Below are positions 2,321 to 64,000 of a stretch of DNA of 64,000 bases, piece after piece. This DNA comes from Norana najaformis (lineage: Eukaryota > Annelida > Clitellata > Crassiclitellata > Hormogastridae). The DNA is taken from assembly GCA_964023275.1 (NCBI GenBank), contig OZ029914.1, positions 13,064,341 to 13,128,340 on the forward strand, written 5' to 3'. Positions within the stretch are counted from its first letter, which is position 1; every line of letters starts with the position of its first letter. Under the pieces are notes generated by a model. It made no database searches and was not told the origin of the DNA. It saw only the letters and a program-made list of their open reading frames with translations. Position numbers and translations under genes: made by a program.

Positions 2321-2848
2321 CCTTTGATTTTGACTCATCGGTGCCTTTATTTTGTACAGTTAGCTTTGACTGAAATTCTTCTAGTTTGGCTAGGGACTCA
2401 TTTAACTTTTCTTGGGTTTCTTTCAGCTTTGCTGTAGTCATTTTTAAAACTAGATCATTTTCTTTTAACTTTTCTTCTGTGATTCTGAGTTGTGCTCGTG
2501 TTTCGTTTACTTGTGTTGCCTGTTCTTTAAGTTTTTCTATGATGCTTACTTTTTCGTTAACCTCTTGCTCTTTCGGTTGAAGGCTTTCTACCCTGTTCTC
2601 GCTAGTCTTAAGTTTGTCAGACAGATTTTTGTTCTTATCTTCTGTTAGACTAAGTCTTTTATCTAACCTATGTACTGTTTCTTGTAGCATTTCAAGTTGT
2701 TTCTGGGTTCTAGTTTTCTCTTGTTGAATACCGTCCTTTTTTATGTTACATTCGCTTTCTCGATGAAGAATTTCTTGCATTACTCTTTCACACTTTTTGT
2801 CTTTGGCTTTTGTTTGCATTATGCTTTGCCTTTTAATGTTTTGCGATT
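2321..2848 (-). CDS. Array gene 1, exon cc2 (long coiled coil)
   Basis: Open for 176 codons between acceptor tttttag-type (ag at 2849-2850) and a perfect donor GTGAGT. The translation is rich in E, K, Q and L with heptad spacing and no prolines in the core, for example IEKLKEQATQVNETRAQL. Phase 1-1, six codons shorter than in genes 3 and 4. It probably drives oligomerisation. This copy is the most divergent of the four full cc2 exons. Confidence 0.75.
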
Positions 2849-5800
2849 CTAAAACAAAATGAAGTAATTGTAGGGACCTTGAATAAAGTGTTTTGAGCCC
2901 ACTATACCGCTGCAAGTTAATATTTTTATGGATTGACGGTTATAGTAACTAGAATAGTCACAGTGATAAAAATAGACAAGAAACAAAAAGTATCCAATGA
3001 AAGGAACAACTCATAATTCAGAGCAGGCAGCTCTATATCTGTACCTGATTAGTCGACCCAGTGCTCAATAGGTGGCAGTAACCATTTGAAGTTCAAAGTG
3101 AATGCCGCGTTTGGCGTCTATGAATAAACTCTGCAAAGTCCATGGATGCCTCATCCACGGCAGGGCTTTAGCAACATTGGCCATTTCGGATATTACAGCT
3201 TAGAAGTAGCTGGTTGCTAACACTACGAGATCACAAATATGTTTGTATATAACTTATGAAAGTCTTTTTTAATGTTAGTCCAATATCTTTGTTCAACATG
3301 TGTGCTCGTAAATAGGCCTACTAAACGTTTTCCATAAAACCCGCAAAATAAGAAAACCATTGTTACTAAATCAAACTTATAAAATCATAAATGTGATGAT
3401 AATGGAAAAGATTTACGTGCAAGGCGTTCAACGTGAATCAGCGGAATTGGCGAAAATTCTTGACCATCTAACCATAGAAAGTAGATTTTGCGCCACCATA
3501 GCTCTAGCATACATGAGAATTCGATAACCTAATAGCTTTTTGGTAACCTTCAAGTATTTTCCTGAAGCAAATCTTCCAAATGCTGTCTCTGGATGTCCTC
3601 TGACGCAACTGGACAATTTTTGTTGAGACTTCGGTCTGCAATTCATTCTGAAGCTCCCTGAAGTTTCTCTGGAGTGTTTCGACTGAATGCTTCTAAAAAA
3701 TTTGTTTCCTGATTTTATGCATCTTAAATTTGCCAGTACCTGCAATATTTCACAGTTACATTTCCTCATCTGAATGACATCGAGCAGAAAAGTACTAAAC
3801 CCAATAGTAGTCAACCTGGTATACACTTTCATCGTATTATAATGCCGTTTATTAATATTCCTTTAGATGGATAAATAGTACTGTAATTTAATTTAATTAA
3901 ATAATCGTTTATATACGAACTTCAGTGTTGCCTATGCAACTGCACAGTTGCATAATTAAAATATTTTAATTTGCTCATTTGCTGAGCAGCGCAGACATCA
4001 CTATTCCCAATATTCCCTTATGAGCCCATTGTCCTACATATGAGTTCATACCACATGGGATTGTTGCCATATTCTCGCCATGTCTTCAACCTATGAAGTT
4101 GCTACTGGTTGATCTTAAGGCTTAAATATAATTGACTTCCAGTGTGTACTGCATCTTTATCTCAAGGAGATATGAATCTCATTCTTATTCATACTTGGCC
4201 ACAAATTTCTTCGCTTTGGGGCATAAAGTGAGCTGGTTGTCCCGTTTTTCCAAACCTTCCCAGTCCAGCATTGAAGCTTCGCAGTGGTCGGCTCATTTTT
4301 GTGGAATAAGTCGGCTTCCAATCAGCGACATATGTCCTTTGACCTTTCCTTGCGTATTTTCTGTAAGCTCTTGAAACCACTGTGTTTCTATCAGTTTCAT
4401 GTTGCTAGGTCAAGAGCGCCTATGAAAAGTTTCTCCTTGAGTGGCGCTGTATAAATTTGCGATTACAATTACAGTTACAATTACAATTTGTTCTAAGGTA
4501 AATCCGTAATACTTTGAACGCAGATATCAATCGATAAAGATAGTGGATAGTTCAATATTGCTGTTTAGGCTATTCGAAACCGATAAACAGCATGTATGGG
4601 ATCTCGCGACTACTCACGTGTGTGCTTATCACTGTTTGTTTCTGTGTAGGGTGTTTTTGCTTTTCCATTCGATTTGGATTTGACGTTTGAATCCTCGGTA
4701 TCAGTAAAGATGTAGGCCGGATACTTATTTGCTTGCTGGAAGGCGACGTAGGCGGTTGTTTTTTCGGCTTAGGTTGAGTTTTTGGAGGGATTCTTTTTCC
4801 GGACGAACCAGAAAGTTTAGTTGGAATTGTCCTTTCTACTGTAGTTCTTGTGATATTTTCATTCTCAGTGCCTTAGAATATAATGCGACACACTATTAGC
4901 AATTAGATACATGTAAGAATATTTAGGAATCGGCAACATATGATTTAATCACTAAGTTAAGTTAACTGTTATCAGACAAGCCGATAGAGTCATGGGAAAA
5001 CGCTGTAGTAGTTGATATCTTTGTTCAACTGACTTGGCTTAGCACTAAAGGTTTTCATAGCATTCTGGACAAAGTTGGTTTTTCTTGGTCAAGCTAAACA
5101 TCTAAATGGTCAAGTCATTGTATCTCTTTTTCTGCCAGGTTGCCCTATGTTCATGTCCGCCAATCTGGTACTTTATCCGTTTCTGTCGAGATCTTTGTCG
5201 CTCTAAACTGACCTCCATCTTTCTGTCTCCTGCCTACTTGTGTGCTTGTGTGAATGTTGTCTTTCTAATCTTCTCTTGATTTCTTTATCTCTGTTTATCT
5301 CTCTCTTTCTGTGACGTTCGCTTTTAAATTTTAGTTTGCATCTCGATCCTAATGCGTACTTGGGCACCTGATCTATGCGCTTTGTTGAAATAATAGGGTT
5401 TGCGTTACACAAATCTCCATCACGGTTTATACGATGCAACTGTTGGTTCTCAACTTTCTTACAATATATATATAAATATAGTGTTGCATACGGCGTATAG
5501 CATAGGACTTAGTGATTTGTTAAGTTGTTGTGCGTTATACGCCTTTTGTTCATTTTGAAGATATTTTATATAAGTGATTATGCTGAATAAAGAATCTTAG
5601 GAGATAGAATAACGCAAGAGAATAAGAATAAAAGCAAACTAGGACTTTCTATTTTACAGTGATAACGATGTTTAGAGTAAGGTATTAGAAAGCGATTTTC
5701 ACGAGAACATTTATTGGCTTCTTCACAGAAGCCACAGAGTAAAAACACAATCGCTCTACTTCTTCACATACCAACTTGCTTGTCTGTGAGTCGGCTGAAA

Positions 5801-7717
5801 ATTTCCTCTTGTAAAGTATCTTTCAAGGCATTCAAGAAGGTTTTAAAATCATCAACAGATTTTCTGCTGATAATGCACAAAAATGTCTCATTTCTCATAC
5901 ATCGCTCTTTCTCGGACAAAATTTGACCATATTCTCTACAACTTAGCACTTCCTGTGCAAACAGTTCTGTAAGTAGACCAGAATCAAGATCTAATGATTC
6001 TGTCAGCCAATCAAAATTTTGACGGATAAGACGAGAGTGTTCGGACACGGATTGATCACCTGCAACAAACGTCAACGGCATAGACTTAAAATAGTTAGAA
6101 CCCTGTTCCAATTGGGTTTGGGTTGAAAACGTTTGCCTCATTTTTGTTCTATGGGAAGCTATTTCACAATGGTCTTTGATAGAACAGTGCATAAGCCTAA
6201 GCTTGTATTAATTATTTAAAGGACTTCTTATTATAACTTTGAGCAACTTGTAAAATTCTGCGAGAAGTCTTAAAATTCTGCTGGTGTATATATTATCAAA
6301 AAGGAAAATCGCACTGAAATCCAGGGCCAGTAACAAAGAAAACACTGTTTACCTGGGCACACACTTTCTCCATCACAGGTTAGCATCTGGTACACGTGAT
6401 GTTGTTTTGTTTTCTTTAGTGATTCAAGAAAACACTCGTAGACATCTCGAGTGTTTCTAATGATGATATTCAGTAGCTCTTCACTCGCTTTTATGGGGGT
6501 AGTATAAAACTGTCGAATATATTCATGTTCTTTCGCAGTTAACTTTTCACTTTGAAACATCTGTGTAACTACATCTGGAACACTTAGGTTGCTGAGCAGC
6601 TGATTGTAATGGCGTCGAATGCGGTTTTCGTGGTCCTCTATAAAACAAGACCCGGTTTCTTTTAGAATAATGTGGGAATTTTTCAGATCCAGTTATTTAG
6701 TCGATTGTACAATTCTCTTTGTCTCGCGCGCTCTCTCTCTCTCCGTTGCTTACTTTCCGTCAGCTGCTTATAGATCTAAATAGAGCTTTTTGTTATAATT
6801 TATGTAGTCTGATGCGATATTTGTGTTACATCCAGTAATTTAGTCGAGGAGCCATTTCTAAAGAGGCGTTAAATTTCTACTTTCACTAAAAACGATTACC
6901 ATTCAGTCTTAAATCGCATACAGATTGAAGGCAAATGATATTACGTTTTTCATTTGATTATTAAAAGCAAACGAATGATAGGTTATCTAGTGTGATAGAA
7001 TGTGAAAACGCGACTGAAAGTGTAACAGAATATCATGTCTAATTTCAAAACTCAATATTCAAACTTTCGACATTTGAATTAACACAATGCGCCATTGAGA
7101 ATCAGATGTTACTGGCATGAAGAAAGAAAGAGCACGAGAAAATAAAAAAGCAAATGAAAATAAATAAAGAAGCAGTTAATTTTAGGCTATGCGTTTATGT
7201 ATTACGTCAATTTTTGTTTATGAAATTTAAATATTATTACAAGAATTTTCATTACATTTCTATGGGACTGGAATACGATTACTTTATAAAAATTAACCTA
7301 CTCAAGGTAAGATGAAAAGTGTTTCTTAAACTGATTTGCTTTAAACAAATATTCCAAAATATAATGTGGACAGTTAAGTAATATTTTCCAATATACAATA
7401 GACTTCACATTAACAAGAAATTAGAAAATTCTACGCTTTGAAATGTGTTAAAGTTAGACCTACCTCATGTAGGCCTATATAAGCCTACATATTATTAGAG
7501 GGAAGGAATATGTGCAACATAAGCGGCAACATAAGCGGCTACTATAATATTTGATATTTGGAACTCTCCAAATATTTAATTGAAAATTACTCCATTTTGA
7601 AAAACCTGTCAGTGGCGACTCTTCGTTGCCCGGATCGGATATGATGCGATGAACCGACTCCCAGAGCAGAAATAAATTTTCAAGGGAGGGACTCGGTGTT
7701 GCCGTTTCAGTTTCCAT
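2321..7717 (-). CDS. Array gene 1: CARD-CARD-coiled coil(-NHL) protein, 3' end outside window
   Basis: Minus-strand gene with visible exons 7606-7717, 6353-6637, 5772-6059, 4618-4871, 3548-3692 and 2321-2848, all joined in frame (phases 1,1,1,0,1,1). They encode a short N-terminus, two CARD-type domains, a proline/lysine-rich linker and two coiled-coil exons. By analogy with genes 2-4, an NHL propeller exon should follow, but it lies left of base 1. The gene is the most divergent member: its linker donor and both cc3 splice sites have changed, and its cc1 donor (GTTACC) is weak. Coding exons are all open, and an in-frame replacement donor exists for the linker, so I treat it as possibly functional rather than a clear pseudogene. 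Confidence 0.65.
3548..3692 (-). CDS. Array gene 1, exon cc1 (short coiled coil)
   Basis: Acceptor aattttttag, phase 0, then 48 codons beginning KHSVETLQRNFRELQNELQ. Leu/Phe occupy heptad a/d positions. The exon leaves phase 1, matching cc2. The donor is GTTACC, a poorer consensus than the GTAAGC or GTTAGC in the paralogues. A competing frame in the same DNA is also open but does not fit the flanking phases. Confidence 0.6.
4396..4497 (+). mobile_element. 3' end fragment of an L2/CR1-like LINE
   Basis: The segment matches the 3' tail of the young LINE at 58830-62220 in opposite orientation: an 'agcgcc...gagtggcgctgtataaat' core followed by a (TTACAA)n-type tail near 4462-4494. It is intronic in gene 1, between the cc1 and linker exons. 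Confidence 0.65.
4618..4871 (-). CDS. Array gene 1, linker exon with shifted donor
   Basis: Acceptor attctaag, then 84 codons rich in P, K, S and T (GSSGKRIPPKTQPKPKKQPP). In genes 2-4 this exon ends at GTG|GTAAG and is 242 nt long. Here the GT has become AT (bases 4628-4629). A perfect GTGAGT lies exactly 12 nt further on, in the same phase 0, adding four codons. I use that donor. If the old boundary were used, the exon would be 4630-4871. Confidence 0.55.
4880..5771. other. Intron of array gene 1 between linker and CARD2 exons
   Basis: No coding exon is seen. Genes 2, 3 and 4 carry an old LINE remnant in the corresponding intron. I cannot find a convincing copy of it here, which supports gene 1 belonging to an older branch or having lost it. 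Confidence 0.35.
5772..6059 (-). CDS. Array gene 1, CARD2 exon
   Basis: 288 nt, phase 1-1, acceptor tgttgcag and donor GTATGT. It encodes a second helical death-fold domain of about 95 aa: SVSEHSRLIRQNFDWLTESL, then LFAQEVLSCREYGQI, then FLNALKDTLQEEIFSRLTDK. The basic start, 'ASR...LL..LF...VLS..E...I' spacing and C-terminal 'F..AL...Q..I...L' pattern are typical of CARDs. It is more divergent from textbook CARDs than CARD1. Confidence 0.7.
6353..6637 (-). CDS. Array gene 1, CARD1 exon
   Basis: 285 nt, phase 1-1, acceptor ag at 6638-6639 and donor GTAAAC. The domain runs ENRIRRHYNQLLSNLSVPDV, then MFQSEKLTAKEHEYI, then ASEELLNIIIRNTRDVYECF, then LKKTKQHHVYQML. This is a canonical CARD pattern with a basic first helix and a terminal 'F...L..T.Q.H....L' helix. 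The second half is almost invariant among genes 1, 2 and 4. Confidence 0.85.
7606..7717 (-). CDS. Array gene 1, first coding exon
   Basis: The start ATG follows an acceptor-like aacttcag at once. 37 codons (METETATPSPSLENLFLLWE...) end in phase 1 at donor GTTTTT. Upstream sequence is open in this frame back to an ATG at 7784-7786. Indels against the other genes shift the frame there, so the extension looks non-coding. Function of this segment is unknown. Confidence 0.6.
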
Positions 7718-7812
7718 TCTGAAGTTGAAAAGGTTATTGCAACAATTGCGACATGCTTCCCATTCATATTTTGTCACATCGGTCATTTACTGCAGGCAGT
7801 TCAATTAAATAC

Positions 7813-7934
7813 TTATTATTAATTATTGTTGTTGCTCCTATTATTACTATTATTATTATTGTTATTATTATTATTATTATTATTATCATCATCGTCGTCG
7901 TCGTTGTCGTCGTCGTCGTCATCATCATCATCTT
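7813..7934 (+). repeat. Compound trinucleotide microsatellite (ATT/GTC/ATC)
   Basis: A run of att/tat triplets grades into cgtcgtcgt and catcatcat. A similar ATT-rich run lies immediately upstream of the first coding exon in genes 2, 3 and 4. The Ile/Val-rich reading frame through it is an artefact. Confidence 0.9.
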
Positions 7935-8076
7935 AACTGAGGTACATATGTTCCCTCAGGATTGCAAAAATTAGAGGAGTGTTATTCTCGGAAGGCTAAT
8001 CTTCGCTGATGGCTGTTTCGGCGGGAAGTTGCTGCAAAAAGCGACTAGACTGAAACGCTGGATGGCCATAGATAAG

Positions 8077-8077
<1 letters not shown>

Positions 8078-8160
<83 letters not shown>

Positions 8161-8161: not shown

Positions 8162-8169
8162 AAACAGAT

Positions 8170-11867: not shown

Positions 11868-12742
11868 TCAAAACGCAAAAAGGAAAATTTGTCCAGCAAA
11901 TTCAGATTGGTTGTCAACCACAAACAGTCGATTGTTTGCTTGATCAAGAAGAATCCTCTCTGGGTCTCGGAATCTGTGTTTTTCTTCTTTTGAGAGAAAT
12001 TCTCTTTTAAATTTCAAATCTGAATCCAATAACAAAACTCGACTGTTCCCTCGATCAACGACCATCACGAATCCATTTCCATCGATGGCCAAATAGACTG
12101 GACGGTTCATTTGTCCGATGGTTGATCCACATTTTCCACCAAATGACCTTTCAAGTTTTCCATTTGCATCCACTACACACACACTATGTAGACTTCTACC
12201 TTTTACTCCAAGACTGACCACAAAATGACCACTGGTCAGTTTCATAGCATGCCATAAATCAAGAATACCTTCGTCTGATGGTAGTTTTATTTCACGTAGT
12301 AATTGTCCATTTGGAGAATATTCATTTAATTTACTTTTATTATTAACAATTAAAATGATATTCGATTCATCTGTAACAGATAGACTGCGTCCCCAATCTT
12401 CTCCTGTTGACCATTTATTTATTAATTTTCCATTTGAATCAACTCTCAAGATTTCACTCCACTGACCATATAATCCTTTGAAATCGAAGACGTAGAGACA
12501 GTTGTTTCTGTTGCAGGATCCTACGTCCATTGGATCAATTAATTCCTTTAAATTCCATTGACGACCGAAACTCAATTTCATCGAATCGTAAACTTCAACT
12601 TCTGAACTCTCTTCACTCACAACAAACAATTCTTTGTCTAAGATCGTCAATCCACGGATCGATTTATTGTTTTCTTCAGCGGATTTTGTTCTGATCGTCT
12701 TAACTAAAACTGGATCCGATTTATATTTGTCTTGGGATTGAC
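11868..12742 (-). CDS. Array gene 2, NHL propeller terminal exon
   Basis: Acceptor tactttaag, phase 1 entry, 291 codons to the stop. NHL-type units are clearest in the C-terminal half: LAIDGNGFVMVVDRGNSRVL, then RILLDQANNRLFVVDNQ. The N-terminal half has looser blades (ELFVVSEESSEVEVYDS and LYVFD...ILRVDSNGKL). The propeller family is related to TRIM2/3/TRIM71-type NHL domains. The exon is very similar to that of gene 4. Confidence 0.85.
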
Positions 12743-15700
12743 CTTAAAGTAGAAATATATTCGTTGAATGATTTTAATATATTCATTGACTTTCTTATAT
12801 TTATGATATTGCTCTGAAATAATTTATCTCTAGATTTTACTAAAAGTCTTGGATATGATGAGGAACAAACACAGACGGATGCAAAAAGAGGAACTGACGT
12901 AGTCAAAGTAATAGTGACACGAACAGGCACTACAAGCCAAATAAACGAACATAATGAGAAAGACAGAAGCAGCCACAGAGCGGGTATTCTTATGTTCAAG
13001 TTCAAGTACTTCTAGGACTTTTTGGTGACAATAGACGACAGTTATTAAGAAGTTTTAGACTGGGGTAGATCCTGTTTTCTTAAAAATCGATGCATAGCTA
13101 AAATATTAAAAATCATCGTAGCAGAAATTATTTAAACTGCAATCAACCCGCATTTTATTAAATATTCATGCTGAATTTAAATTACTTTATAGCTTCCACA
13201 ATAATATTAGGTCTATTGTTTGCAACGGACATGAATTTTGGTCGATATAAAAAACGGATGCATAGGAGAAACAGAACCTGAGAAAACATGAAACAAAGAG
13301 AAAAAAGGCGGACAGGCAGACACAGTGGAAGCACAGCAAACATTTCTTCATAGATCATTGTAATCGGATACCCAATAATTCAAGGTTAGTGTAGTGCGGA
13401 CTAAACATATTTTATTAATCTCACAGTCATGTTCTGAAAAGTTGGGATATTTAGTCATATACAAAAACTTTCACCGATATAACAAAGAAATACAACTCAC
13501 CTTTCGAACTTAAATCATCTATGCCTCTATCTGTCACTTTTAGCCCTGCCTTTGATTCTTTTAGTTTGGCTTCGGTTGCGTTTAACTTTTCTTGCGTTTC
13601 TTTCAGCTTTGCTGTAGTAATTTTTAAAACTGTGTCGTTTTCTTTTAACTTTTCTTCTGAATATCTGAGTTGTTTTTGCGTTTCTTTCAGGTTTTTTGCC
13701 TGTTCTTTAAGTTTTTCTATGATGCTTACTTTTTCATTAACTTCTTGTTCTTTCTGCTGATTCAGCACCTTAAGGCTCTCAACTTTGGCTTCACTATTCC
13801 TAAGCTTCTCAGACAGAGTTCTGTTCTCATTTTCTTTTACATTAGGCCTTTTCTCCAACTCGTGTACTGTTTCTTGTGATTCTATTTGTTGATTTGGGGT
13901 TCTAGTTGTCTCTTGTTTAATGTTATCCTTGATTCTTTTAGAATCGCTGTCTTGATGAAGAATTTCTTGCATCTGTCTCTCATGTTTTTCGCCTACGAAT
14001 TTGGTTTGCACCATATTTTGCCTTTTGAAATTTTGCGATTCTAAAAAAATTAAAATATAGTGACATGAAATAAAGAGTTGTGAACCCACTATACCGCTGT
14101 AAGTTAAGACAACATATAAAGTTTTAGTATAGATTGGTGGTTCCAGCAGGTCTTCCTAGAATGGCCATAATGGAAAAAATCAACAAGAAAGAAAAATATC
14201 CGTTGATAGTAACACCTCACAATTGGCAGAAGGAGGCAGTCAGCTCTATACCTGTACCCGGTTAGTCGTGTGAGTTACTCAGAGACTTAGAAAGTGGCGT
14301 TGCTGGCGTTTGATGGGAAACGGTAACATTTTAAAGTTAAAAGCGAGCGGTGTGTTCGGCGTCCAGGAATAAACGCTGCAACATCCATGGATGCATTATA
14401 TATCCACGGCAGGGTTTAGGTCACAGTGGCTATTTCGGTGGATATAACAGCTTAGAATTGGTTGATTGCTAACACTACAAACACACAAACATTCGGACAA
14501 TGTTGGACAATGTTAGTCCGACCTACATTTTAGCTCAACATGTGTGATCGTAAATGCGATACGTTTTCCTGAAAACCATCAAAATAAAGTGAAAAATTTC
14601 AAATTTGAAATCAAACTCATAAAATCGTTAAGCCTTAAATGTACTGATATTCAAGAGATTTGCGTGCTAAATATGAATCAGCAGAAATGTTGCAAATTCT
14701 TGGCCATTTAACTGCAGAAAATATGCATATAGAAACTGCGTCACCTTAGCTGCATCTGTTGTCACCAGCAGACTACAGGTATAAATCTCTATACACTTGT
14801 AACTTGAAGGAGTATATAGATAGTAGTAGTTCCTCGGTTTAACGGCAGCTTATGGCATCAAAGGCCGTTGCCGTCGCCCTCCTCCTTCATCCAGGCTTGG
14901 GACTGGCACTACCCTAAGCAAGGCAGTGGCGAAGTTAATATATATATATATATCCCTTTCGCTTACCTTGAAGTATTTTCCTGAAGCAAATATTCCAAAG
15001 GTTGTTTGTTGATGCTCTCTGATGCATCTGGACAATTTTTGTTGAGACTTCTGTCTGCAACTCATTCTGAAGTTCCTTGAAATTTCTTTCGAGTTTTTTG
15101 ACTGAACACTTCAAAAAAATTTTGCTTCCTTATTTAAATCGATATATTTTGTGCAGTAGTAAATGTGATGATTTGCATGATTTCACAATTACAGTACCTC
15201 AACTTGATGACTCTGTACTGAAAGGCGCGGAAGCCACCAATACCCGACCTGGATTACACTTTCAATGTCGTGTGATGCCGCTTATTATTATTCTTTTAGA
15301 TGGATATAATGTAATTTAAATTCTTATCGTGTTGGTAGGCCCCCTATACAAATTTCAGTTTCGTCTATAGTAATGCAACTGCTCATTTGCACAATTATAA
15401 TATTTTCATTTGCGCATAGGCCTATGTTGGGCCGTGCAGCTGACAATATTTCCCATATTCCCTTATTACCTCGCATGTCCTGCACATGTAGCACGTATGG
15501 GATTATTGTCATATTCTTACCATATCTTCAACTTATGACGTTCCTACTGAGTGGTTAAGTATGCAAAGAACGTAGCTAATATGTGTTCTTAATGCTTATA
15601 TGAAATTTCTTGTAGACTGTGTTCTGTTTTATCTCAAGGAGCCATGCATCTCGGATTTCTTGCAAAGTGAACTGTTTGTCCCGCAGGCCCAAACCTCAAC

Positions 15701-18700
15701 ACAGTCCCCCATTGAAGCTCCGCTGTGGCAGGCTCATTTTGTGGATTAAGTTACTTTGATCGCGGATATCAATCCACAAAAATTCTTGTATAATTCAGTA
15801 TTGCAGCTTAGGCGATATAAAAACGATAAAGGGTAAGCATGAAAACACGCGTCTAACTCAAGTGCATGCTTACCGCTGTTTCCTTTTGTGTAGAGTTTCG
15901 TTGTTTTTCCATTCGATTTGGTGTAGGTGTGTGAGGCATCGGTGGCAGTAAAGATTTACACCGGGAAAGAATTTCTGTGTCGCCGGACGACGTAAGCGGT
16001 CGTTTTCTGGGCTTAGGCAGAGTTTTTGGAGGGATTCTTTCCCCCGACGAATCGGAAATTCTAGTTGACATTGGCCTCACTACTGTAGCGTTTTTGAAAT
16101 TTTCATTTGCAGCGCCTTCGAATATAACGCGAAACATTATTATCAATTTAAATGAATGTGTCAATATGGCTGAAGTGTCTACTTATCAATTAATCACAAA
16201 GTACTGTATACGGATCTAGTGCATAACCGTACTTCCTATTTACTTTCGAGCTGACACCGGTACCAAATTATTGTGGTCTGTGAGAGATGCAATCATCACA
16301 GAGCACAATCTTCCCTTATGGTTGGATGCCAATTGTAGTCTGACAAACCGATAGAACAAATGAATGCACAGGATGACAAGGTTTTGTGTATAACTCTGAT
16401 CTTCCTCAACTCATAACAACCCAATTCAAACCTGCAGATGTAACTGACATGGTGGGCTACTGTCAGTCCTCCATCGAGAAGGATACGAGGACCCTTAACC
16501 AAGCCTCTAGGTCACTGAATTCCATCGCTATATGATCGACCTTGGCTCGTGACTGTATCATGGAAATCCACATATACTGAATCCGGATTCAGCAGTAGAC
16601 AATTGGATGACATCCATGACTGAATTTCATTGACGACAGCAACCAATGAAGACACATGTGGCGGAGTGTCACCCGGAAGGCATGACGGAAGCAACTGCAA
16701 GTTATCGGCATTCTGACGCCGTGAGCCACAATTGCCCAGACCGAATATTCAGGACTCATTTCCACCACCTTCATTCGGGCCTCCGAGAAGAAACTGGGCC
16801 AAATAAACAGTTGACCAGTTATAAAAAGTAAGTCGAAAATCGATTCATGAGCATCGATGCGGTAATCAACCGGGTGAAACGCAACGCTCATATGCAGGAG
16901 AACCAATATTGTGACACAACCCGGTTCAATGGATTTAAGGCAAACCGAAAACACCTCGGTAGAAAGGCCTTTTCGGAAACATGATTCATCTCTTCGTATT
17001 AGGCAACTGCATACTAAATATTGTAATATTTGCCTAGCCACGACTCTTTCAATTAGGCCTACTTTTAAAAAATAGGTCGAATTGCATATCAGTCAGTAGC
17101 TAGACAGATGTTCAGGCTCGAGTCGTGGCTTCTTTAAAGCGGGCTCTATAATAGAACTGCTCATTTTGCCGAGACAACAAGGTTTAGTACAAGATTTCAG
17201 AAAACTCTATTCATGAGAAAATTTATTGGCTTTTTTTTACGTACCATCGTGCTTGTCAGTAAGTCTCTTGACAATTTCTTCTTGCAAAGTATCGTTCAAG
17301 GCAAGAATGAACTTATTGAAATCAACAGCAGATTTTCGGCTTATAATGGACAAAAGTGTCTCAATCCTTACAAATCGATTCTTTTCAGACACAATTTGTT
17401 CAAATTCTCGACAGCTTAGCACTTCTTTCGCAAAAAGAGTTGTAAGAAGACCAGAATCGAGATCTAATGATTCTGTCAGCCAATCATAGTTTTGACGCAA
17501 AAGACGAGAGTGTTCGGACAGGGATTGTTCACCTGCAACAAACATCAGTGGCACAAATTTAAACTAGTTGCATCCCTGTTCCAATTGTGTTGGAAATGTC
17601 CCAATTTGTTCTATTGTAAGCCATTTTACAATGGCTTACAGTGGAACAACGTAATACTCCAAATATGGGTTAACTATTTGTTAGTAGAGTTCTTGTTCTG
17701 ACATTAGGGTGTCTCGGCTTCGATACTTTTGCTCAGCGCTGACTATGACAAACTCGTTCTTGTCATGAAGTTCGTTCTCTCTTTTATTCACATCAATTCT
17801 GATCGTTTATTATCGTAGAAACCGAACCTGACGACTACTGAACTTCAGCAATGTTCTCTGCAATGTTCTCTCTACTCTTGGTCTGACAGTTTGTATTGCT
17901 CAGATACCACAAGAAGTGTCTCCCCATCAATACCCTGCTAGCCAAATCCTTTTCTGTTGCACGTGGCGACAACAGACTACTGGTATAATTCCCTCTACAC
18001 GTGCCATTTTAAACAATATATATATACATTTAACAGCTGAACCCTTTAGTCTAACTGTGACTTTGGTTGTTCCTAGAAAACGTTGGTTGTCGGGGCACGA
18101 CGCTTTTCATTTGCTGAGTTCATACTTTGGAACTCACTTTCTATGTATGTTCGATAGACGACTTTCTTATAATAGGCCTTCCAAATCCAAAAAGCTCATA
18201 TGTTTCAGATCATATTATTTACAGAAATGTCGTCTATAATGACATAATCTTTATTTTTGAAGAATGCTCTTAGTTTCAACAAAATTCAACAACATGCACA
18301 CTCGCAAAGTTTGAACTCTATGTTCGTTATACATAAAAGGAAAACGGAATTGAAATCCAGAGTTAGTAGCAAAGGAAAACACTGTTTACCTGTGCACACA
18401 CTTTCTTCATCACAAGTTAGCATCTGGTATACGTGATGTTGTTTTGTTTTCTTTAGTGATTCAAGAAAACACTCGTAGACATCTCGAGTGTTTCTAATGA
18501 TGATATTCAGTAGCTCTTCACTCGCTCTTATTGGGGTTGAAAGAAACTGTCGAATATGTTCCTGTTTTTTCGGAGTTAACTTTCCACTTTGAAACATCTG
18601 TGTAACTACATCTGGAACACTTAGGTTGCTGAGCAGTTGATTGTAGTGGCGTCGAATTCGGTTTCCGTGGTCCTCTAAAAAATCACGGGTTCCTTATAAA

Positions 18701-19536: not shown

Positions 19537-19539
19537 ATC

Positions 19540-44506: not shown

Positions 44507-45381
44507 TCAAAACGCATAAAGGAAAATTTGTCCAGCAAATTCAGATTGGTTGTCAACCACAAACAGTCGATTGTTGGCTTGATCAAGAAGAATCCTCTCT
44601 GGGTCTCGGAGTCTGTGTTTTTCTTCTTTTGGGAGAATTTCTCTTTTAAATTTCAAATCTGAATCCAATAACAAAACTCGACTGTTCCCCCGATCAACGA
44701 CCATCACGAATCCATTTCCATCGATGGCCAAATAGACTGGACGGTTCATTTGTCCGATGGTTGATCCACATTTTCCACCAAATGACCTTTCAAGTTTTCC
44801 ATTTCCATCCATTAGACACACTCTATGTAGACTTCTACCTTTTACGCCAAGACTGACCACAAAATGACCACTGGTCAGTTTTATAGCATGCCATAAATCA
44901 AAAATACCTTCGTCTGATGGTAGTTTTATTTCACGGATTAATTGTCCATTTGGCGAATATTCATTTAATTTACTTTTGCTATTAACAATTAAAATGATAT
45001 TCGATTCATCTGTAACAGATAGACTGCGTCCCCAATCTTCTCCTGTTGACCATTTATTTATTAATTTTCCATTTGAATCAACTCTCAAGATTTCACTCCA
45101 CTGACCATATAATCCTTTGAAATCGAAGACGTAGAGACAGTTGTTTTTGTTGCAGGATCCTATGTCCATTGGATCAATTAATTCCTTTAAATTCCATCGA
45201 CGACCGAAACTCAATTTCATCGAATCGTAAACTTCAACTTCTGAACTCTCTTCACTCACAACAAACAATTCTTTGTCTAAGATCGTCAATCCACGGATCG
45301 ATTTATTGTTTTCTTCAGCGGATTTTGTTCTGATCGTCTTATCTAAAACTGGATCCGATTTATATTTGTCTTGGGATTGAC
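44507..45381 (-). CDS. Array gene 4, NHL propeller terminal exon
   Basis: Acceptor tactttaag, phase 1 entry, 291 codons with stop. LAIDGNGFVMVVDRGNSRVL and RILLDQANNRLFVVDNQ mark two NHL units. Preceding blades include RVCLMDGNGKLERSFGGKCG. No canonical AATAAA was seen close downstream. Confidence 0.85.
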
Positions 45382-48300: not shown

Positions 48301-51300
48301 CACTTATTATTATTCTTTTAGACGGATATAATGTAATTTAAATTCTTATCGTTTTGATATACAAATTTCAGTTTCGTCTAGAGTAATGCAACTACCTATT
48401 TGCATAATTATAATATTTTTATTTGTCCATGTTTGGGCAGTGCAGCTGACAATATTTCCCATATTTCCTTATTAACTCGCATATCCTACATATGGAGCAC
48501 TTATGGGATTATTGTCATATACTCGCCATATCTTCAACATATGAAGTTGATACTGGATGCTTATGTATGCAAAAAACTTATTGAATTTATGTTCTTAATG
48601 CATGCATGAAATTCTCTTGCAGGCTGTGCTCTGTCTTACCTCAAGGAGCCATGCATCTCAGTCTTGTCCTTCCTAGGGCTCAGATTTCTTCGTTTTACTG
48701 GGCAAAGTGAACTCATTGTCCCGCCGGCCCAAACCTCAACACAGTCACGCATTGAAATTCCACTGTGGTCGGTTCATTTTGTGGAATAAGTTACTTTGAT
48801 CACGAATATCAATCCAAAAAATTCTTGGATAATTCCATTTTGCAGCTTAGGCAATAGAAAAACGATAAAGAGTAAGCATGAAAACACGTGTCTAAATCAA
48901 ATGTATGCTTACCACTGTTTCCTTCGGTGAAGAGTTTCGTTGTTTTTCCATTCGATTTGGTGTAGGCTTGTGAAGCATCGGTGGCAGTAAAGATTTACAC
49001 CGGCAAAGAATTTGTGTGTCGCCGGGCGACGTAAGCGGTCTTTTTCTCGGCTTAGGTAGAGTTTTTGGAGGGATTCTTTCCCCCGACGAACCAGAAATTC
49101 TAGTTGACATAGGCCTCACTGCTGTAGTGTTTGTGAAATTTTCATTAGCAGCGCCTTCGAATATAACATCATTAGCAATTTAAATGAATGTGTCAATATG
49201 TATGAATTGGCTACTTATGAATTAATCACAAAGTACTGTATACGTATCTAGTGCATAACCGTACTTGCTATTTACTTCCGAGCTGACGCCTGTACCAAAC
49301 TATTGTTCTCTGTGACGGATGCCATCATCACAGAGCACAATCTTCCGTTATGGTTGGATGCCAATTGTAGTCTGACAAACCGATAGAACATATGAATGCA
49401 GAAGATGACAAGGTTTTATGTATAACTCTGATCTTCCTCAACTCATAACAACCCAATTCAAACCTGCAGATGTAACTGACATGGTGGGCTATTGTGAGTC
49501 TTCCATAGAGAAGGATACGAGGACTCCTAACCAAGCCCTCAGGTCACTGAATTCCATCATTGTTTGATCGACCTTGGCTCGTGACTGTGTCATGAAATCC
49601 ATATATATATTGAATCTGGACTCTGCAGTAAACAGTTGGTAGACATCCATGACTGAATTTTATTGACGACAGCAACCAATGAAGACACATGTGGAGGAGT
49701 GTCACCCGGAAGGCATGACCGAGACAACTTCATGTTATCGGCACACTGGTGCTTTGAGCCACAATTGTCCAAACCGAATGTCAGGACTCATCTCCACCAT
49801 CTTCATTCGGGACTCCGAGAAGAAACTGGGCCAAATAAAGGGCTGACCAGTTACACAATATGAAGTCGAAAGTCGCTGCAGGAGCATCGATGCGGTAATC
49901 GACTGTTTGAAACACAGCGCTCACATGCAGGAGACAACCCCACACAACCTGATTCTATGGTTTTAACGAACTGTGATTAAAGCCAAACCGAAAACACCTC
50001 GGTAGAAAGACCTTTTGGGAAACCTGATTCATCTCTTCGTGTTAGGGAACTGCATATTAAATATTGTAATAGTTGACTAGCCACGACTCTTTCAATTAGG
50101 CCTACTTTTAACAGGTAGGTCAAGCTGCATATCAGTCGGTAGCTAAAAAGATGTTCAGGCTCGAGTCGTGGCTTCTTTAAAGCCAGCTTTATACTAGCTT
50201 TTTCTGGACAGTTGAAAGACCCCCTCTTTCAAAATCGTGTAGTAGAGCCAGACGAAAAATGGTAGCGGTTTGTACAGGAACTCGTGAAGAAGAAATTTTA
50301 GAATCAAGTCTAGTGAGCCGTTTTTCTGTAGCATGAGAGGAGAGTGGTTCTCAGACAAATTTCATTCGCCTCATTACGGTCAATTCAAAGCGATCTAAAC
50401 AACGCTGTGTCCTAGAGTAGAGAGGATGGGTTGATCATAAAGTCCGACTCGGCATATCGGCTACTTTCTTCATGAGGTAACGAAAGTGATATAACGTAGA
50501 AGAAAGCAGTTCTCTTAGATATGCATTTCTAAAGACAAATACGAGGCTGGTTGTTGCGGAATAGAATATATGATTTTAATATTGAGGGTATGTTATATGA
50601 GATATTATGATGAATAAAGAAAATTATATGAGCAGACTAATAAGTATAAACTAGAACTGTTAATTTTGCCGATACAACAATGTTTAGTATAAGATTTCAG
50701 GAAGCTCTTTTCAGGGTGAAATTTATTGGCTTATTTACATACCAACTTGCTTGTACGTGAGTCTCTTGACAATTTCCTGTTGCAAAGTATGGTTCAAGGC
50801 AATAATGAACTTGTTGAAATTGTCAACAGATTTTCGGCTGATAATAGACAAAAGTGTCTCAGTCTTCACAAATCGATTCTTCTCAGACACAATTTGTTCA
50901 AATTCTCGGCAGCTTAGCACTTCCTTTGCAAAAAGAGTTGTAAGAAGTCCAGAATCGAGATCTAATGATTCTGTCAGCCATTCATAGTTTTGACGCAAAA
51001 GACGAGAGTGTTCGGACACGGATTGTTCACCTGCAACAAACGTCAACGACGCTAACTTAGAATGGTTGCAACCCTGTTCCAATTGTGTTGGAAATGCCCC
51101 AATTTACAGTGGCTTGCAATAGAACAACGCACTACTCCAAATATGGGTTAACTATTTAATTGTAGAGTTCTTTTTCTGACATTAGGGTGTCTCAGCTTCG
51201 ATACTTTTGCTCAGTGCTGACTATAGCAAACACGTTTTTTTGACAAAGTTCGTTCTCTCTTTTATTTACATCAACTCCGACAGTTTATTATTTTAGAAAC

Positions 51301-52877
51301 CGAACCAGACGACTGCTGAACTTCAGCAATGTTCTCGCTCTACTCTGGGTCTGACAGTTTATATTGTTCAGATACTACAAGAAGTGTCTCCCCGCCAATA
51401 ACTTGCTAGCCAAATCCTTTTCTGTTGCACATGGCGCCAACAAACTACAGGTAGGCCTATAATTCCGTTTACACGTGCCACTTGAAACAATATATATATG
51501 CAGTAATATACATGTAACAACGGAACCATTTAGCCTAACTGTGACTTTGATTGTTCCTAGAAAAAGTTGGTTGTCGGGGCACGAGGCTTTTCATTTGCTG
51601 AGTTGGAACTTTGGAACTCATTTTATACGTATGTTCTATAGACGACTTTCTTTAGGCCTTCTATATCCAACAAAAACTCATATGTTCCAGATCACATCAT
51701 TTACAGAATTATGGACTATGCTGACATAGTTTTTATTTGTGAAGAATGCTCTCCGTTTCATTAAGGCTTAAATGTAAATTTAACAACTTGCACAGTCGTA
51801 AAGTTTGGACTTGATGTTCATTATACATAAATGGAAAACGGAATTGAAATCCAGAGTTAGTAACAAAGGAATATTCTGTTTACCTGTGCACACATTTTCT
51901 CCATCACAAGTTAGCATCTGATACACATGATGTTGTTTTGTTTTCTTTAGTGATTCTAGAAAACACTCGTATACATCTCGAGTGTTTCTAATGATGATAT
52001 TCAGTAGCTCTTCACTCGCTTTTATGGGGGTAGTATAAAACTGTCGAATATATTCATGTTCTTTCGCAGTTAACTTTTCACTTTGAAACATCTGTGTAAC
52101 TACATCTGGAACACTTAGGTTGCTAAGCAGCTGATTGTAGTGGCGTCGAATGCGGTTTTCGTGGTCCTCTATAAAAATCATTGGTTTCCTATAAAACATT
52201 GTGTCGAAAACTTTCAGATCCAGTTATTTACTCGATTGTACGATTCAGTCGCATACAGAATAAGGACATAGAAAATCAATTTCTTCGTTTGATTACTAAG
52301 AGCAAACGAATGATAAGTTCGCCTAGTAATGCGAAAACTTGACTAAAATGAACATATAACGGTTAATATTATGCTGTCTTTATGTATTATGTAGTACATG
52401 CAGTTTTGTACAGAAATTTTAAGCATTTTATATCAGAATTTTATGTACATTTCTAGACCACTAGAACACAATTATTTGATATGATTTAACCTACTTAAGG
52501 TAAGGTAAAACTATTTCTTAAGCTGATTTGCTTTAAATGAATATTCAAAATGCGTTAAGCTTGATATTACCATTAAATTAGAAAATAGTATGTCATTTAA
52601 ATGTGTTTGAATTTAGGCCTTTTTGATATAGCTAAGCCAATATATTGTTATAGGGGAGGAATATGTGTAACATAAGGGGCCACTGTTTTATTTAAGGCAA
52701 TAATATAACTTATTCATCATTTGGAACCGACAATATTTCACGGAAAGTTGCTCGTTTTGAAATACCTGTAAATAGTGGTTCTTCGGCATCCGGATCAGAT
52801 ATGACGCGGTGAACAGAATCCCAGAGCAGAACTAATTTTTCACGGGAAGGATTCGTCGTTGCCTTCTCAATATCCAT
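44507..52877 (-). CDS. Array gene 4: CARD-CARD-coiled coil-NHL protein (about 830 aa)
   Basis: The cleanest member. Exons 52766-52877, 51884-52168, 50743-51030, 48913-49154, 48002-48146, 46698-47243 and 44507-45381 total 2493 nt with every junction GT-AG and in phase. Layout: 1-37 N-terminal segment, 38-132 CARD1, 133-228 CARD2, 229-309 Pro/Lys/Arg-rich linker, 310-357 cc1, 358-539 cc2, 540-830 NHL propeller. No RING or B-box, no transmembrane segment, no nucleotide-binding domain. Tandem CARDs upstream of an oligomerising coil recall RIG-I-like or CARD9/11-type signalling; the coil-plus-NHL tail recalls TRIM2/3/71. The role as a ligand-gated CARD nucleator is inferred. Its nearest paralogue is gene 2. 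Confidence 0.8.
46575..46579. other. Empty target site (TAATT) matching the gene 3 transposon insertion
   Basis: The sequence around this TAATT is collinear with both flanks of the 29668-32293 element in gene 3, without an insert. Confidence 0.8.
46698..47243 (-). CDS. Array gene 4, exon cc2 (long coiled coil)
   Basis: 546 nt, phase 1-1, acceptor ttttgcttcag, donor GTGAGT. 182 helical codons (EREKTRSKKQQTESQETVHE; LKETQEKLNETEANLKELKA). Joins the propeller as G|GT. Confidence 0.8.
48002..48146 (-). CDS. Array gene 4, exon cc1 (short coiled coil)
   Basis: Acceptor aaatttttag at phase 0, then KKYGKFLERKFEELQNELQT with heptad Leu/Phe, donor GTTAGC at phase 1. The phases agree with the linker before and cc2 after it, which is why this frame was chosen over the longer overlapping ORF at 47966-48220. 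Confidence 0.65.
48430..48550. repeat. Palindrome-rich interspersed repeat copy
   Basis: gctgacaatatttcccatat, atcctacatatgg, atgggattattgtcatatac, ccatatcttcaacatatgaa. Same intronic position as in genes 1, 2 and 3. Confidence 0.5.
48913..49154 (-). CDS. Array gene 4, linker exon
   Basis: 242 nt, acceptor tattcgaag, donor GTAAGC, phase 1 to 0. SSGERIPPKTLPKPRKRPLT core, disordered-looking and basic. Nearly the same as gene 2. Confidence 0.7.
49320..49920 (-). mobile_element. Degraded LINE remnant in gene 4 intron
   Basis: Orthologous to the remnants in genes 2 and 3 (VSSLVAVVNKIQSWMSTNCL; HHVSYICRFELGCYELRKIR). Confidence 0.65.
50743..51030 (-). CDS. Array gene 4, CARD2 exon
   Basis: 288 nt, phase 1-1, acceptor tttgttgcag, donor GTATGT. 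SVSEHSRLLRQNYEWLTESL, LFAKEVLSCREFEQIVSEKN, FIIALNHTLQQEIVKRLTYK. Confidence 0.75.
51884..52168 (-). CDS. Array gene 4, CARD1 exon
   Basis: 285 nt, phase 1-1, acceptor tttttatag, donor GTAAAC. ENRIRRHYNQLLSNLSVPDV, MFQSEKLTAKEHEYIRQFYT, ASEELLNIIIRNTRDVYECF, LKKTKQHHVYQML. Almost the same as gene 1, although the genes as a whole are not closest relatives. Confidence 0.85.
52766..52877 (-). CDS. Array gene 4, first coding exon
   Basis: 112 nt, ATG after cgctttcaga, donor GTATTT, phase 1. MDIEKATTNPSREKLVLLWD then SVHRVISDPDAEE. An upstream in-frame ATG exists at 52974-52976. Confidence 0.6.
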
Positions 52878-57774: not shown

Positions 57775-58652
57775 TTATCTAAACCCAAAGATAAAAATTC
57801 GTCCAGCATACTCCGGTTGGTTGTCACCCACAAACAGTCGATTGTTGGCTTGGTCCAGAAGAATCCTCTCTGGATATCGGAATCCGTGTTTTTCTTCTTT
57901 TGAGAGAATTTCCCTTTCAAATTTCAAATCTGAATCCAATAACAAAACTCGACTGTTCCCTCGATCAGCGACCATCACGAATCCATTTCCATCGATGGCC
58001 AAATAGACTGGACAATTCATTTGTCCGATGGCTGATGCACATTTTCCACCAAATGACCTTTCAAGTTTTCCATCTGCATCCACTACACACACTCTATGTA
58101 GACTTCTACCTTTTACGCCAACACTAACTACAAAATGACCATTGGTCAGTTTAATAGCATGCCATATATCAAGAATACCTTTGTCTGATGTTAGATTTAT
58201 AACACGGATCAAATGTCCTTGTGGTGAATATTCATTTAATTTACTTTTATTATTAACAGTTAAAATGACATTCGAGTCATCTGTTACAGACAGACCGCTT
58301 CCGCAATCATCTCCTGTTGACCATTTCTTTATTAATTTTCCAATTGAATCAACTCTCAAGATTTCATTCGACTGACTATATTGTACCTTGAAATCGAAGA
58401 TGTAGAGACATTTGTTTATGTTGCAGGATCCTACGTCCATTGGATCAATTAATTCCTTTACATTCCATTGACGACTGAAACTCAATTTCATCGAATCGTA
58501 AATTTCAATTTCTGAACTCTCTTCACTCACAACAAACAATTCTTTGTCTAAGATCGTCAAACCACGGATCGATTTATTGTTTTCTTCAGCGGATTTTGTT
58601 CTGATTGTCTTATCTAAAACTGGATCCGATTTATATTTGTCTTGGGATTCAA
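57775..58652 (-). CDS. Array gene 5, NHL propeller terminal exon
   Basis: 292 codons with stop. The acceptor is ttttag|TTGAATCC, which differs from ttaag|GTCAATCC in genes 2-4 but has the same phase. The C-terminal half is nearly identical to gene 3. The first 100 or so residues carry many replacements (FKVQYSQSNEILRVDSIGKL versus FKGLYGQWSEILRVDSNGKL). Confidence 0.85.
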
Positions 58653-61600: not shown

Positions 61601-64000
61601 CGAGGAGCGTCGAGGAATAGGTAGCCCGGAGGAGCAGCGCGTCGAACCGGAGCATCAGAGGAAGAGGAGTGTCAAGACTCCGTGACGACGAGTATATCCA
61701 GATTATGCTGAGAGATAGAGTTAGCGATCTCCATAAACTTATTCCCAGTGACCGAGCGTTCAGTGTCCCAAGTCTAAGTCCATCACTGCCACCCAGGTCT
61801 GAGGGCAGCCGAGAGGTAGGCGACGGAGCAGAATCCAGAGGTATAGGCTGAGATTGGCAGGAGGGAGACGATAATCCAGGCCGTGAAGATGCCGGTCGCC
61901 ATAGATGAAGCTTGAATAGAGTCTTACGTAAGGAACGTCGAATGGTGAGAGCCGGTTGATTGTAGGTACGTAGCTCAGCGGAAGTGTACACACGAGTCGG
62001 AGGAGTGGGGGAAGGAGCGGCCGAAGACGACAACATCGTCAACTTAATTCAAACAAAATTAAGATAACTTACGCTCTTTAACCCAAGAACAAACAAGCCG
62101 TAGTAATCCACAAGTTAGATAGCGTAGGTATAATCCAACAGAAAACGCAAAAAAATCCGATGAAAATTCAAACACAAACGGGTCGGCAACAACACGCCTA
62201 AGCGCAAACATGACGTCCGATACTAAGATATTAAGCATGTCTTCAAAGTTTAAACCTATATCTTACAAATAAGATTAAATTGTTATATAGCAATTTTTCT
62301 CCCAATTGTTGCAATTGCATCGTACACCATCGTCACTTCTCATTCTATGAATGAAGAAAGATACCGTGATCTTTCGAAATAACGCTTGCTGAAAGTAGAC
62401 TCTTCCATCAAACTAAATTTTTACAGTTTCTACTTTCAGAGATTTTGTTCTGTTCTCTTGCAATTTTTTTAATTTGAATTGCCATGGACTGAATCCATAA
62501 TTAATATGCATGTGCCTCCTAAACCACCAATTCCCTTGTTACTGAACTCCGCTAATCTGTTTTAATCTGGTGACTTGTTACCATAATGCCTCAGTCATCA
62601 ATCGATGGTCGTTTCAAGTGAAATCGCAGTCAAAATTTCGTCATACTGTAGACTGACCTAAACATTATACTATGCGTATTAGTTGGACAAAAGCAGATGT
62701 TTGGAAACAAATATAATACAGGCCTATAAACAACAAATGACCAATTGGATTAACCGTTAGCGGTTAGTCTTTTGTATTCTTGTGTCTGTTCTTTTAGAAG
62801 AGCTTTCTCTTTTCTCTTTAGCTCTAAGTCCTGTTCGAGATTCAAACGTTTTTCTCTGCTACCTTTAAAGACAAAATGCATAAAGATTTCACTTTATTGA
62901 AATTACTTTCAGTTGAAATTAGCCTACTAAATGAATTCATTATGGCATATTATTGATTAAAGCAAAATAAACAGCATTTTACGTTGTTGAATTTTTGTCC
63001 TTTACTTCTGATAACAGGTTGACAGACAGACAGACAGACACACAAGACAGTTTAAAGACATTTTGAAAACAAACATAAAGACACACCTATATCGATCGTC
63101 TAGCTGCATTTGAAAAGTCAACTAAAAACTATGCAACGCTCTTGAAATGCGTTTCCATGTTCACATAAACAACTATCGGCTCTGAACAGCATTAACTTCT
63201 ATTATATTAAACCTTGCGAACCACATGAAATGGTCTCGAGAATCCCAGGGGTGCCAGGACCAAACTTTGAGAACAGCTGGTATAGACAATGTCGTCATGG
63301 ACTGCCAATGCCGCTATCTTCGTTGAATAATGCACCTGGTAGTATGACTGATGCTTGGACAATAGACATGAGCTCTACAGTGCTCTGACCGTAGAGGATC
63401 AACCAACCACTCCAGGAGTTTTAAAATGAAAGTCGCAATTTAGATTAGCTGGCAACATCCAAGTAGAGGCCCGGATTTTTAGTATTGGATGTACAAGGAA
63501 CACTTTCAAATTATGTTTAAAATGCCTTTTTAGCAAAATTTTTGAATTTTTTCTATAATTCCGGCACGTTGTGATAATAAGTTGTGCAAATAACAGTTGA
63601 TCTTTGACAATGATACGCCTTGTCTTACTGCTCTCAGTGGAACACTACGAGTCACCAAGAGACGCCAAGACAAGGACGAAATTTTATTTCTTGGTGAAGA
63701 ACAACTGAAGCGTCAATGAAGATGTATCATAGATAAACAAAAATTGAGAAAAAAAGATAATTCTTCCACATGAAATATATAATGATAAAAGATAATTTAT
63801 AACAGTGCCTACTTTTGAAACTGCAATCAAATGAAACCTATATCAGTGCTTGTGTATTACATTATACTGGGTTCGTATTAAATTTTTACCTAAAGATTCC
63901 TGTTGCAGTTCTTGAATTTGCTTCAAGAGCTGTGCCTTTTCTTTCGCCCAAACTCTTCTCTCTTCCTCCAATGTTAGTTTGAGGTTCAATGGTGTCAATT
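57775..64000 (-). CDS. Array gene 5: 3' portion of a CARD-CARD-coiled coil-NHL gene, 5' part outside window
   Basis: Visible coding pieces are the propeller exon 57775-58652 and the 3' part of a cc3 exon from 63890 to the window edge. Between them lies a nearly intact LINE (58830-62220). The remaining exons (N-terminal, CARDs, linker, cc1, cc2) should lie to the right of the window. The paralogue is the 3' half of gene 3. Both visible exons have intact splice sites and open frames, so the gene is probably functional despite the LINE in its intron. Confidence 0.6.
58830..62220 (-). mobile_element. Nearly intact L2/CR1-like LINE (about 3.4 kb)
   Basis: The 3' end is a TTACAA-type repeat tail (58830-58850 on the plus strand) and the 5' end lies near 62220. 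The paralogous empty site is at 25910/25911 in gene 3, which fixes both ends. At most 2 bp of target duplication is possible, consistent with the CR1/L2 group. It carries an apurinic-type endonuclease and a reverse transcriptase in one reading direction. The GC content is clearly higher than in the surroundings. Confidence 0.85.
58885..62042 (-). pseudogene. LINE ORF: endonuclease and reverse transcriptase, two stops and one frameshift
   Basis: Order on the minus strand: a Ser/Pro-rich N-terminus; endonuclease start LRLGTLNARSLG; a 1-nt frameshift near 61725; a TGA where Trp of the 'TESW' motif is expected (about 61672). After that the frame is open from about 61670 to 59641, with endonuclease motifs IITGDLNIH and LSDHGLLLYKV. 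RT follows, with SNYRPISNLYFLSKLLER, FGLPQGSVLAPLL and catalytic YADD at 59761-59772. An in-frame TAG at 59638-59640 precedes a further 205-codon C-terminal part ending at 58885. Few lesions imply a recent insertion. As read, it cannot make the full protein. Confidence 0.8.
62222..64000. repeat. Right-hand copy of segment 25916-27730 (intron of gene 5)
   Basis: Collinear and near-identical by eye to gene 3's intron between cc3 and the propeller. No coding exon is seen before cc3 at 63890. Confidence 0.85.
63890..64000 (-). CDS. Array gene 5, exon cc3 (cut by window edge)
   Basis: Donor GTAAAA at 63884-63889. Open frame RRVWAKEKAQLLKQIQELQQ as in gene 3, ending ESL. The acceptor should lie a few bases beyond the edge. 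Confidence 0.65.

Follow-up and report, generated by a model that had tools for sequence, protein, structure and literature searches.

The 64,000-nucleotide stretch of Norana najaformis DNA analyzed here (the window, C2:13064341-13128340) carries one minus-strand tandem array of genes that combine two CARDs, a coiled coil and an NHL propeller, with three complete genes (g2, g3, and g4) and parts of two others (g1 and g5). Gene models were built by tblastn over the window and 40 kb on either side, followed by splice-site inspection, and related exons were sought in the whole genome (608 Mb, 17 contigs). Each complete gene has seven coding exons, namely start, CARD A, CARD B, Pro/basic hinge, short helix, coiled coil, and NHL. 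The start exon ends in phase 1, CARD A and CARD B are both 1-1, the hinge is 1-0, the helix is 0-1, the coiled coil is 1-1, and the NHL exon runs from phase 1 to the stop. In g2, g3, g4, and g5 the joined frame begins at an ATG in exon 1 and, with matching phases, meets its first stop within the NHL exon, predicting proteins of 827, 832, 830, and 832 aa, respectively (g5 joined with the flank). A previous reading made from the sequence only had proposed five minus-strand genes with one exon order. This is correct only when the flanks are included, because the NHL exon of g1 and six exons of g5 lie outside the window, which by itself holds three complete genes. The complete proteins, which it had put at about 827-871 aa, are 827-832 aa long and include an extra start exon, and its coiled coil of about 230 residues is a helix and coiled-coil stretch divided between two exons (48 + 182 residues), not one.

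Gene g4 spans 52877-44507 (window positions, minus strand, as for all exons below). Its start exon (52766..52877) provides the ATG and 37 full codons and ends in phase 1. It is followed by CARD A (51884..52168, phase 1-1), identified by Pfam CARD (7e-10), CARD_2 (6e-9), and a PDB profile, and by CARD B (50743..51030, phase 1-1; Pfam CARD 2e-6). The hinge exon (48913..49154, phase 1-0) has 12 P and 15 K/R among 81 residues and no Pfam match; the short helix exon (48002..48146, phase 0-1) was placed by alignment of seven copies, the coiled-coil exon (46698..47243, phase 1-1) by composition and periodicity, and the NHL exon with the stop (44507..45381) by its PDB matches. Gene g3 spans 40433-24857, with exons for start (40322..40433), CARD A (39435..39719), CARD B (36674..36961; Pfam CARD 4e-10), hinge (34590..34831), helix (33704..33851), coiled coil (32417..32962), and NHL with stop (24857..25734). 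In g2 (19383-11868) the corresponding exons lie at 19272..19383, 18390..18674 (CARD A; Pfam CARD 1e-8), 17245..17532, 15874..16115, 14967..15108, 13501..14040, and 11868..12742, the last again with the stop. Start exons in these and the following gene come from the gene model, hinge and helix exons of g2 and g3 from alignment and the gene model, and the remaining exons of both, where no Pfam value is given, from tblastn and the gene model.

The two partial genes are completed by the flanks. All seven exons are kept in g1, the first six of them inside the window: start (7606..7717), CARD A (6353..6637; Pfam CARD 7e-10), CARD B (5772..6059; Pfam CARD 2e-6), hinge (4630..4871; by alignment, end uncertain), helix (3548..3692; alignment and gene model), and coiled coil (2321..2848; tblastn and gene model), with the NHL exon just to the left at C2:13062857-13063669. 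Since its aligned hinge donor reads AT, not GT, g1 may be damaged. The only g5 exon in the window is NHL with the stop (57775..58652; tblastn and gene model), and its six others lie to the right (locus L012, with the start exon reaching into L013). Two further copies are found to the left. One, gm1, was modelled as far as the coiled coil, and its likely NHL exon (L036) lies beyond the 40-kb flank; the other, g0, has a frameshift in NHL, and its start exon was not found in the window and 40-kb flanks. The start exon is thus present in 6 of 7 copies, and the short helix exon could be aligned in all seven.

The domain assignments at both ends of the predicted proteins, CARD-type exons and an NHL propeller, were confirmed. 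The Pfam CARD scan took in six of the eight CARD exons of the window (exon A of g4, g1, and g2; exon B of g4, g1, and g3), and all six were above the cut-off. A profile of all eight exons found the CARDs of CARD8 (2e-5), cIAP1, APAF1, MDA5, CARD9, and caspase-9 (0.026) in PDB, while a single CARD A sequence as query found no CARD there. The Pfam NHL scan covered g4 (0.005, below the cut-off) and g5 (3e-6, above it), and a phmmer search of PDB with the g4 exon returned the NHL domains of Thin, TRIM71, TRIM3, and TRIM2 at 7e-21 to 1e-13. The helix and coiled-coil stretch of g4 contains 39% E/K/Q and has a spectral peak at 3.54 residues. A 3.5-residue period was matched by 2 of 2000 shuffles in gm1 and by none in g0 and g2, and was no better than shuffles in g3 (1482/2000), g4 (890/2000), and g5 (1071/2000). 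The peaks of these last three lie at 3.54-3.56, which may be read as phase slip but not as proof of a coiled coil; by composition and period together, the coiled coil is clear in 3 of the 6 copies tested.

The CARD genes are under purifying selection. Median dN/dS (NG86; 15 or 21 non-independent pairs per exon class, with g0 NHL used only as far as the frameshift and the end of the g1 hinge uncertain) was 0.38 for the start exon, 0.50 for CARD A, 0.40 for CARD B, 0.96 for the hinge, 0.56 for the helix, 0.48 for the coiled coil, and 0.65 for NHL. Tandem duplication of the copies, as proposed previously, is supported. The dS between two genes differs from exon to exon, with values of 0.034 in NHL and 0.328 in the coiled coil for g2-g4, and 0.107 and 0.095 for g3-g4; these differences point to exon-wise conversion or recombination among the array genes. 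The intron between the coiled-coil and NHL exons is as long as 6.7 kb in g3 and 7.4 kb in g5. In g3 it contains a coiled-coil exon fragment (28254-28457; 68% over 68 aa), and g5 carries one at a like place (L012), so this block was duplicated. The same g3 intron holds two long minus-strand frames at 29984-31724 that are perhaps transposon-related, one of which matches zf-AD below the threshold (E 0.005), and the g5 intron holds frames of a retroelement of the type without long terminal repeats (non-LTR; endonuclease and reverse transcriptase, 58885-62048).

The NHL exon belongs to a large set. The g4 NHL query (134 of 860 candidates scored) gave at least 135 matches at 134 places, all on C2 between 3.99 and 18.26 Mb, and together with two further NHL queries (138 of 830 and 141 of 858 scored) it defined at least 150 distinct NHL exons spread along 14 Mb of a single contig the size of a chromosome. 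In the counts one split match is represented without its second half, and all NHL, head, and pairing totals given here are lower bounds. Two arrays, separated by more than 5 Mb, repeat the order CARD A, CARD B, NHL on a single strand. Among the matches listed, the array at 12.95-13.15 Mb contains 9 CARD A, 9 CARD B, and 8 NHL exons, all on the minus strand, and the array at 6.85-7.7 Mb contains 35 CARD A and 35 CARD B (34 each on the plus strand) with 27 NHL, all plus. At 8.5-9.9 Mb, 9 of 21 CARD A matches have a listed NHL exon within 30 kb. Within this latter region, at 8.86-9.66 Mb, eight exons closely resemble CARD A (77-83%) and have a coiled-coil exon (46-56%) 6-9 kb beyond them, with weaker CARD B matches; they are possibly a single-CARD branch. 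At 13.15-14 Mb (mostly 13.28-13.41) there are 13 CARD A matches, 12 of them with CARD B within 6 kb and none with a listed NHL exon within 30 kb; these may be CARD-CARD genes that end in a different C-terminal part.

Of the 135 matches of the g4 NHL query, 95 had no listed CARD match within 20 kb upstream, and other N-terminal regions (heads) were therefore searched for. No coiled-coil exon of the CARD-gene type was found within 1.5 kb of the NHL exons at loci L021-L036. The NHL exon at 13.2437 Mb is preceded, at a distance of about 4-5 kb, by an exon coding for RING, B-box, and coiled coil (L067). At 8.04 Mb (L066), protein kinase exons (Pfam 2e-24), nearest in PDB to MAP3K9, MLK4, and TAK1, are followed by coiled-coil-like frames and then NHL, and at 12.05 Mb (L065) two exons judged by eye to be Ig-like, a tentative assignment, lie upstream of NHL. 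When the nearest head within 16 kb was assigned to each of the 150 NHL exons, 31 had CARD, 27 RING/B-box (TRIM type), 23 kinase, and 18 the tentative Ig-like head, and for just one of them heads of different types lay within reach. Of 17 loci tried, the NHL acceptor could be placed in 16, and it was in phase 1 in all of these, which included CARD, TRIM, kinase, Ig-like, and unassigned genes. This common phase makes heads and tails compatible. The same NHL set thus stands behind several kinds of head, of which CARD is one, and the proposal of a self-contained CARD-CARD-coiled coil-NHL family has to be given up.

The association of heads with NHL exons exceeds that found when positions are shifted at random. 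A same-strand NHL exon was found downstream, within 16 kb for CARD A and 12 kb for the other types, in 32 of 40 CARD A, 27 of 40 TRIM-type, 24 of 42 kinase, and 16 of 56 Ig-like heads, and on the opposite strand within the same distances in 1, 0, 1, and 0, respectively. Under 2000 random common shifts of 20-400 kb each, the means were 13.7, 3.7, 6.8, and 6.9 and the maxima 29, 13, 18, and 15, so that no shift reached the observed count for any of the four types. The 40 CARD A heads are those of the two arrays (4 of 44 partial matches left out), the other 38 of 82 CARD A matches on C2 not being counted as heads. Kinase heads leave out 23 of 65 matches on C2 and all those elsewhere, the main TRIM-type count leaves out matches below 54%, and the Ig-like count leaves out those below 64% or off C2, including three at 62% that lie about 1 kb upstream of NHL. 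Other exons of these types do not pair with the listed NHL exons, namely 30 TRIM-type exons at 34-44% on C2 and 23 kinase exons on C2 outside 3.9-9.8 Mb. Kinase exons related to the NHL-linked ones (37-65%) occur at 0.19-2.2 Mb of C2, with no listed NHL exon within 12 kb downstream. The first 13 Mb of contig C8 carry many B-box exons with open frames of about 390 aa, a second large TRIM-type set, and none of the NHL matches listed is on C8.

Variation among the NHL exons is concentrated on one face of the propeller, with blades and faces assigned from the NHL sequence pattern. The set comprised 22 exons (four from the window, g1, 16 loci, and L065, with g0 left out for its frameshift), and the six blades were divided before their variability was computed, when the alignment of the four window copies was already known. 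By convention, the bc and da loops form the top surface of the propeller. Mean column entropy was 1.41 in these loops, 0.58 in the ab and cd loops, and 0.51-0.58 in strands, and none of 5000 permutations reached the difference between top and bottom loops; by element it was 1.58 for bc, 1.28 for da, 0.59 for ab, 0.58 for cd, 0.50-0.64 for strands a-d, and 0.93 for the N-terminal stretch. From blade to blade the variability peaks at equivalent places, namely directly after strand b and within the da loops. Counted from the first full codon of the NHL exon, the variable positions are residues 43-44, 69, 71, 87, 90, 114-118, 133-134, 157-161, 179-183, 213, 230-231, 259-261, and 278-282. From counts on the tree, dN/dS was 0.98 for the bc and da loops and 0.48-0.50 for the strands and other loops, and in subsets chosen post hoc it was 1.27 at the da loop ends and 0.79 at the bc loop start. 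NHL domains of flies and fish have been described to bind RNA, and to do so on the top surface (PMC9070667), and another report places the putative binding cavity of human TRIM-NHL proteins at the top surface (PMC9634614).

Taken together, we consider it probable that the window represents one branch of a large sensor family with a diversified recognition propeller and interchangeable signaling heads. Several observations count against this explanation. No head was assigned to 51 of the 150 NHL exons, and same-strand NHL exons also occur upstream of 26 of 40 CARD, 16 of 40 TRIM, 5 of 42 kinase, and 1 of 56 Ig-like heads, as expected of tandem arrays. The Ig-like exon of L065 that was scanned has no Pfam match, many Ig-like matches contain stops, and close matches lie on three other contigs, so this exon may be a dispersed element; with shorter NHL lists its pairing count was reached by 5 and 14 of 2000 shifts. 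Repeated head swapping was also tried on the NHL tree, where CARD required 3 changes and TRIM 4, and kinase formed one group (84/70). It is suggestive only, as a single clade of CARD-headed NHL exons was not rejected (approximately unbiased test, AU p = 0.09) and heads cluster on the tree (4 changes against a shuffled mean of 7.0). The dN/dS of the variable face is not above 1, and positive selection at single sites was not retained, the best uncorrected p values being 0.03 and 0.04 with none significant after correction; relaxed constraint on this face is therefore possible. The top opening also differs among human TRIM2, TRIM3, and TRIM71 (PMC9634614), and the faces themselves were assigned by pattern.

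The long introns before the NHL exon would suit an arrangement in which the exons on the CARD side form one gene and NHL a separate neighbor, the two having been duplicated together and their joined frames being an artefact of manual splicing. We regard this as very improbable, since four genes have ATG-to-stop frames with matching phases, order and strand are kept in both arrays, and neither the constant phase-1 acceptor nor the pairing excess is accounted for; frame and phase thus support the single-gene architecture proposed previously. An expansion specific to this lineage of TRIM-NHL-like regulators, for example of RNA, is unlikely, though less so. Here the N-terminus would have been replaced, no foreign ligand would be involved, and the loops would vary through relaxed constraint after duplication. 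The TRIM-type heads on the same NHL set, a dN/dS of about 1 on the variable face, and RNA binding by NHL domains of flies and fish agree with it. However, the remainder of the same exons stays at half that dN/dS, both CARD exons are constrained (0.40-0.50), and CARDs and kinases are signaling domains, not decayed RING fingers. It is improbable, too, that the propeller recognizes a self RNA or a host protein, with the CARD branch tuning cell death or NF-kB signaling and not detecting microbes. Related NHL domains do bind RNA, and none of our tests, made on genes alone, points to an immune function, but the high copy number and the diversity of the binding face would fit external ligands better.

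The sensor family favored here resembles several known systems in part. TRIM-NHL proteins (TRIM2, TRIM3, TRIM71/LIN-41, Brat, Mei-P26, Thin) likewise have a coiled coil followed by an NHL propeller; some are among the PDB matches of g4 NHL, whose exon set also has TRIM-type partners on this contig. The CARD genes differ in carrying two CARDs, in being tandem and multi-copy, and in their variable top loops. Neither RING nor B-box gave a Pfam match in the scanned exons of the CARD genes (the introns were not scanned exhaustively for RING), and the genome search listed no B-box at C2:12.95-13.15 Mb (150 of 627 candidates scored). RIG-I-like receptors (RIG-I, MDA5) have tandem N-terminal CARDs ahead of the recognition part, as the array genes do; exon A also matches CARD_2 and the CARD profile finds MDA5. 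In the array genes the recognition part would be an NHL propeller, a coiled coil is present, and no helicase domain is present in the complete 827-832 aa models or the Pfam-scanned exons. In CARD9/CARMA proteins a CARD precedes a coiled coil, and CARD9 is among the profile matches, whereas the array genes have two CARDs, hinge, helix, coiled coil, and a C-terminal NHL in many tandem copies, and not a single CARD placed directly before the coiled coil. Amphioxus innate immune genes show shuffled domains, with receptors that include shuffled connector domains, and, like NLRs, join one recognition module to alternative N-terminal signaling domains in an expanded family (PMC2575513). The recognition part here would be an NHL propeller; NACHT and leucine-rich repeats gave no match in the Pfam-scanned exons, and the term "nhl" does not occur in the text of the amphioxus paper. 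In corals NHL and CARD fall in separate gene groups (PMC11639872), and TRIM classes have been described (PMC3503706). In agreement with the previous reading, no CARD+NHL protein was named in the literature searched on CARD, NHL, TRIM, or kinase combinations, a body of text that lacked bioRxiv preprints and most subscription papers.

By analogy with these systems, we infer single transcripts and a chain of events in which the NHL propeller would bind a ligand through its variable face and the coiled coil would multimerize the protein. Once brought together, the paired CARDs of the CARD branch might then nucleate a CARD assembly that engages an adaptor with a CARD, a caspase, or a pathway of the NF-kB type. 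Sister branches would have as their head a ubiquitin ligase of the RING/B-box type, an MLK/TAK1-like kinase or, on a tentative reading, an Ig-like region. Genes would multiply by tandem duplication, and the output would be set by whichever head a gene carries. The cytosolic sensor suggested previously for the CARD genes gains support in its recognition role from the variation on one propeller face, and filament signaling by the CARDs and a cytosolic immune role would follow from the analogy. More tentatively, and with slightly less confidence than we would give to an even chance, the whole contig might form a combinatorial sensor system, in which a hypervariable NHL cassette of at least 150 and possibly several hundred copies is joined in phase 1 to at least three signaling heads (tandem CARD, RING/B-box ligase, and MLK/TAK1-like kinase) and perhaps to an Ig-like one.

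If so, one class of recognition surface could trigger filament assembly, ubiquitination, or phosphorylation. To our knowledge, it is leucine-rich repeats, Ig domains, or lectin folds that make known germline receptor repertoires diverse, and the NHL fold is familiar chiefly from regulators of RNA and from ubiquitin ligases. In N. najaformis the diversified part would be the NHL propeller, and one set of propellers would feed several signaling chemistries. The family would then offer a testable case of new sensors arising from a variable tail joined to existing signaling heads, and of the reuse of tandem CARDs in combination with a novel detector.

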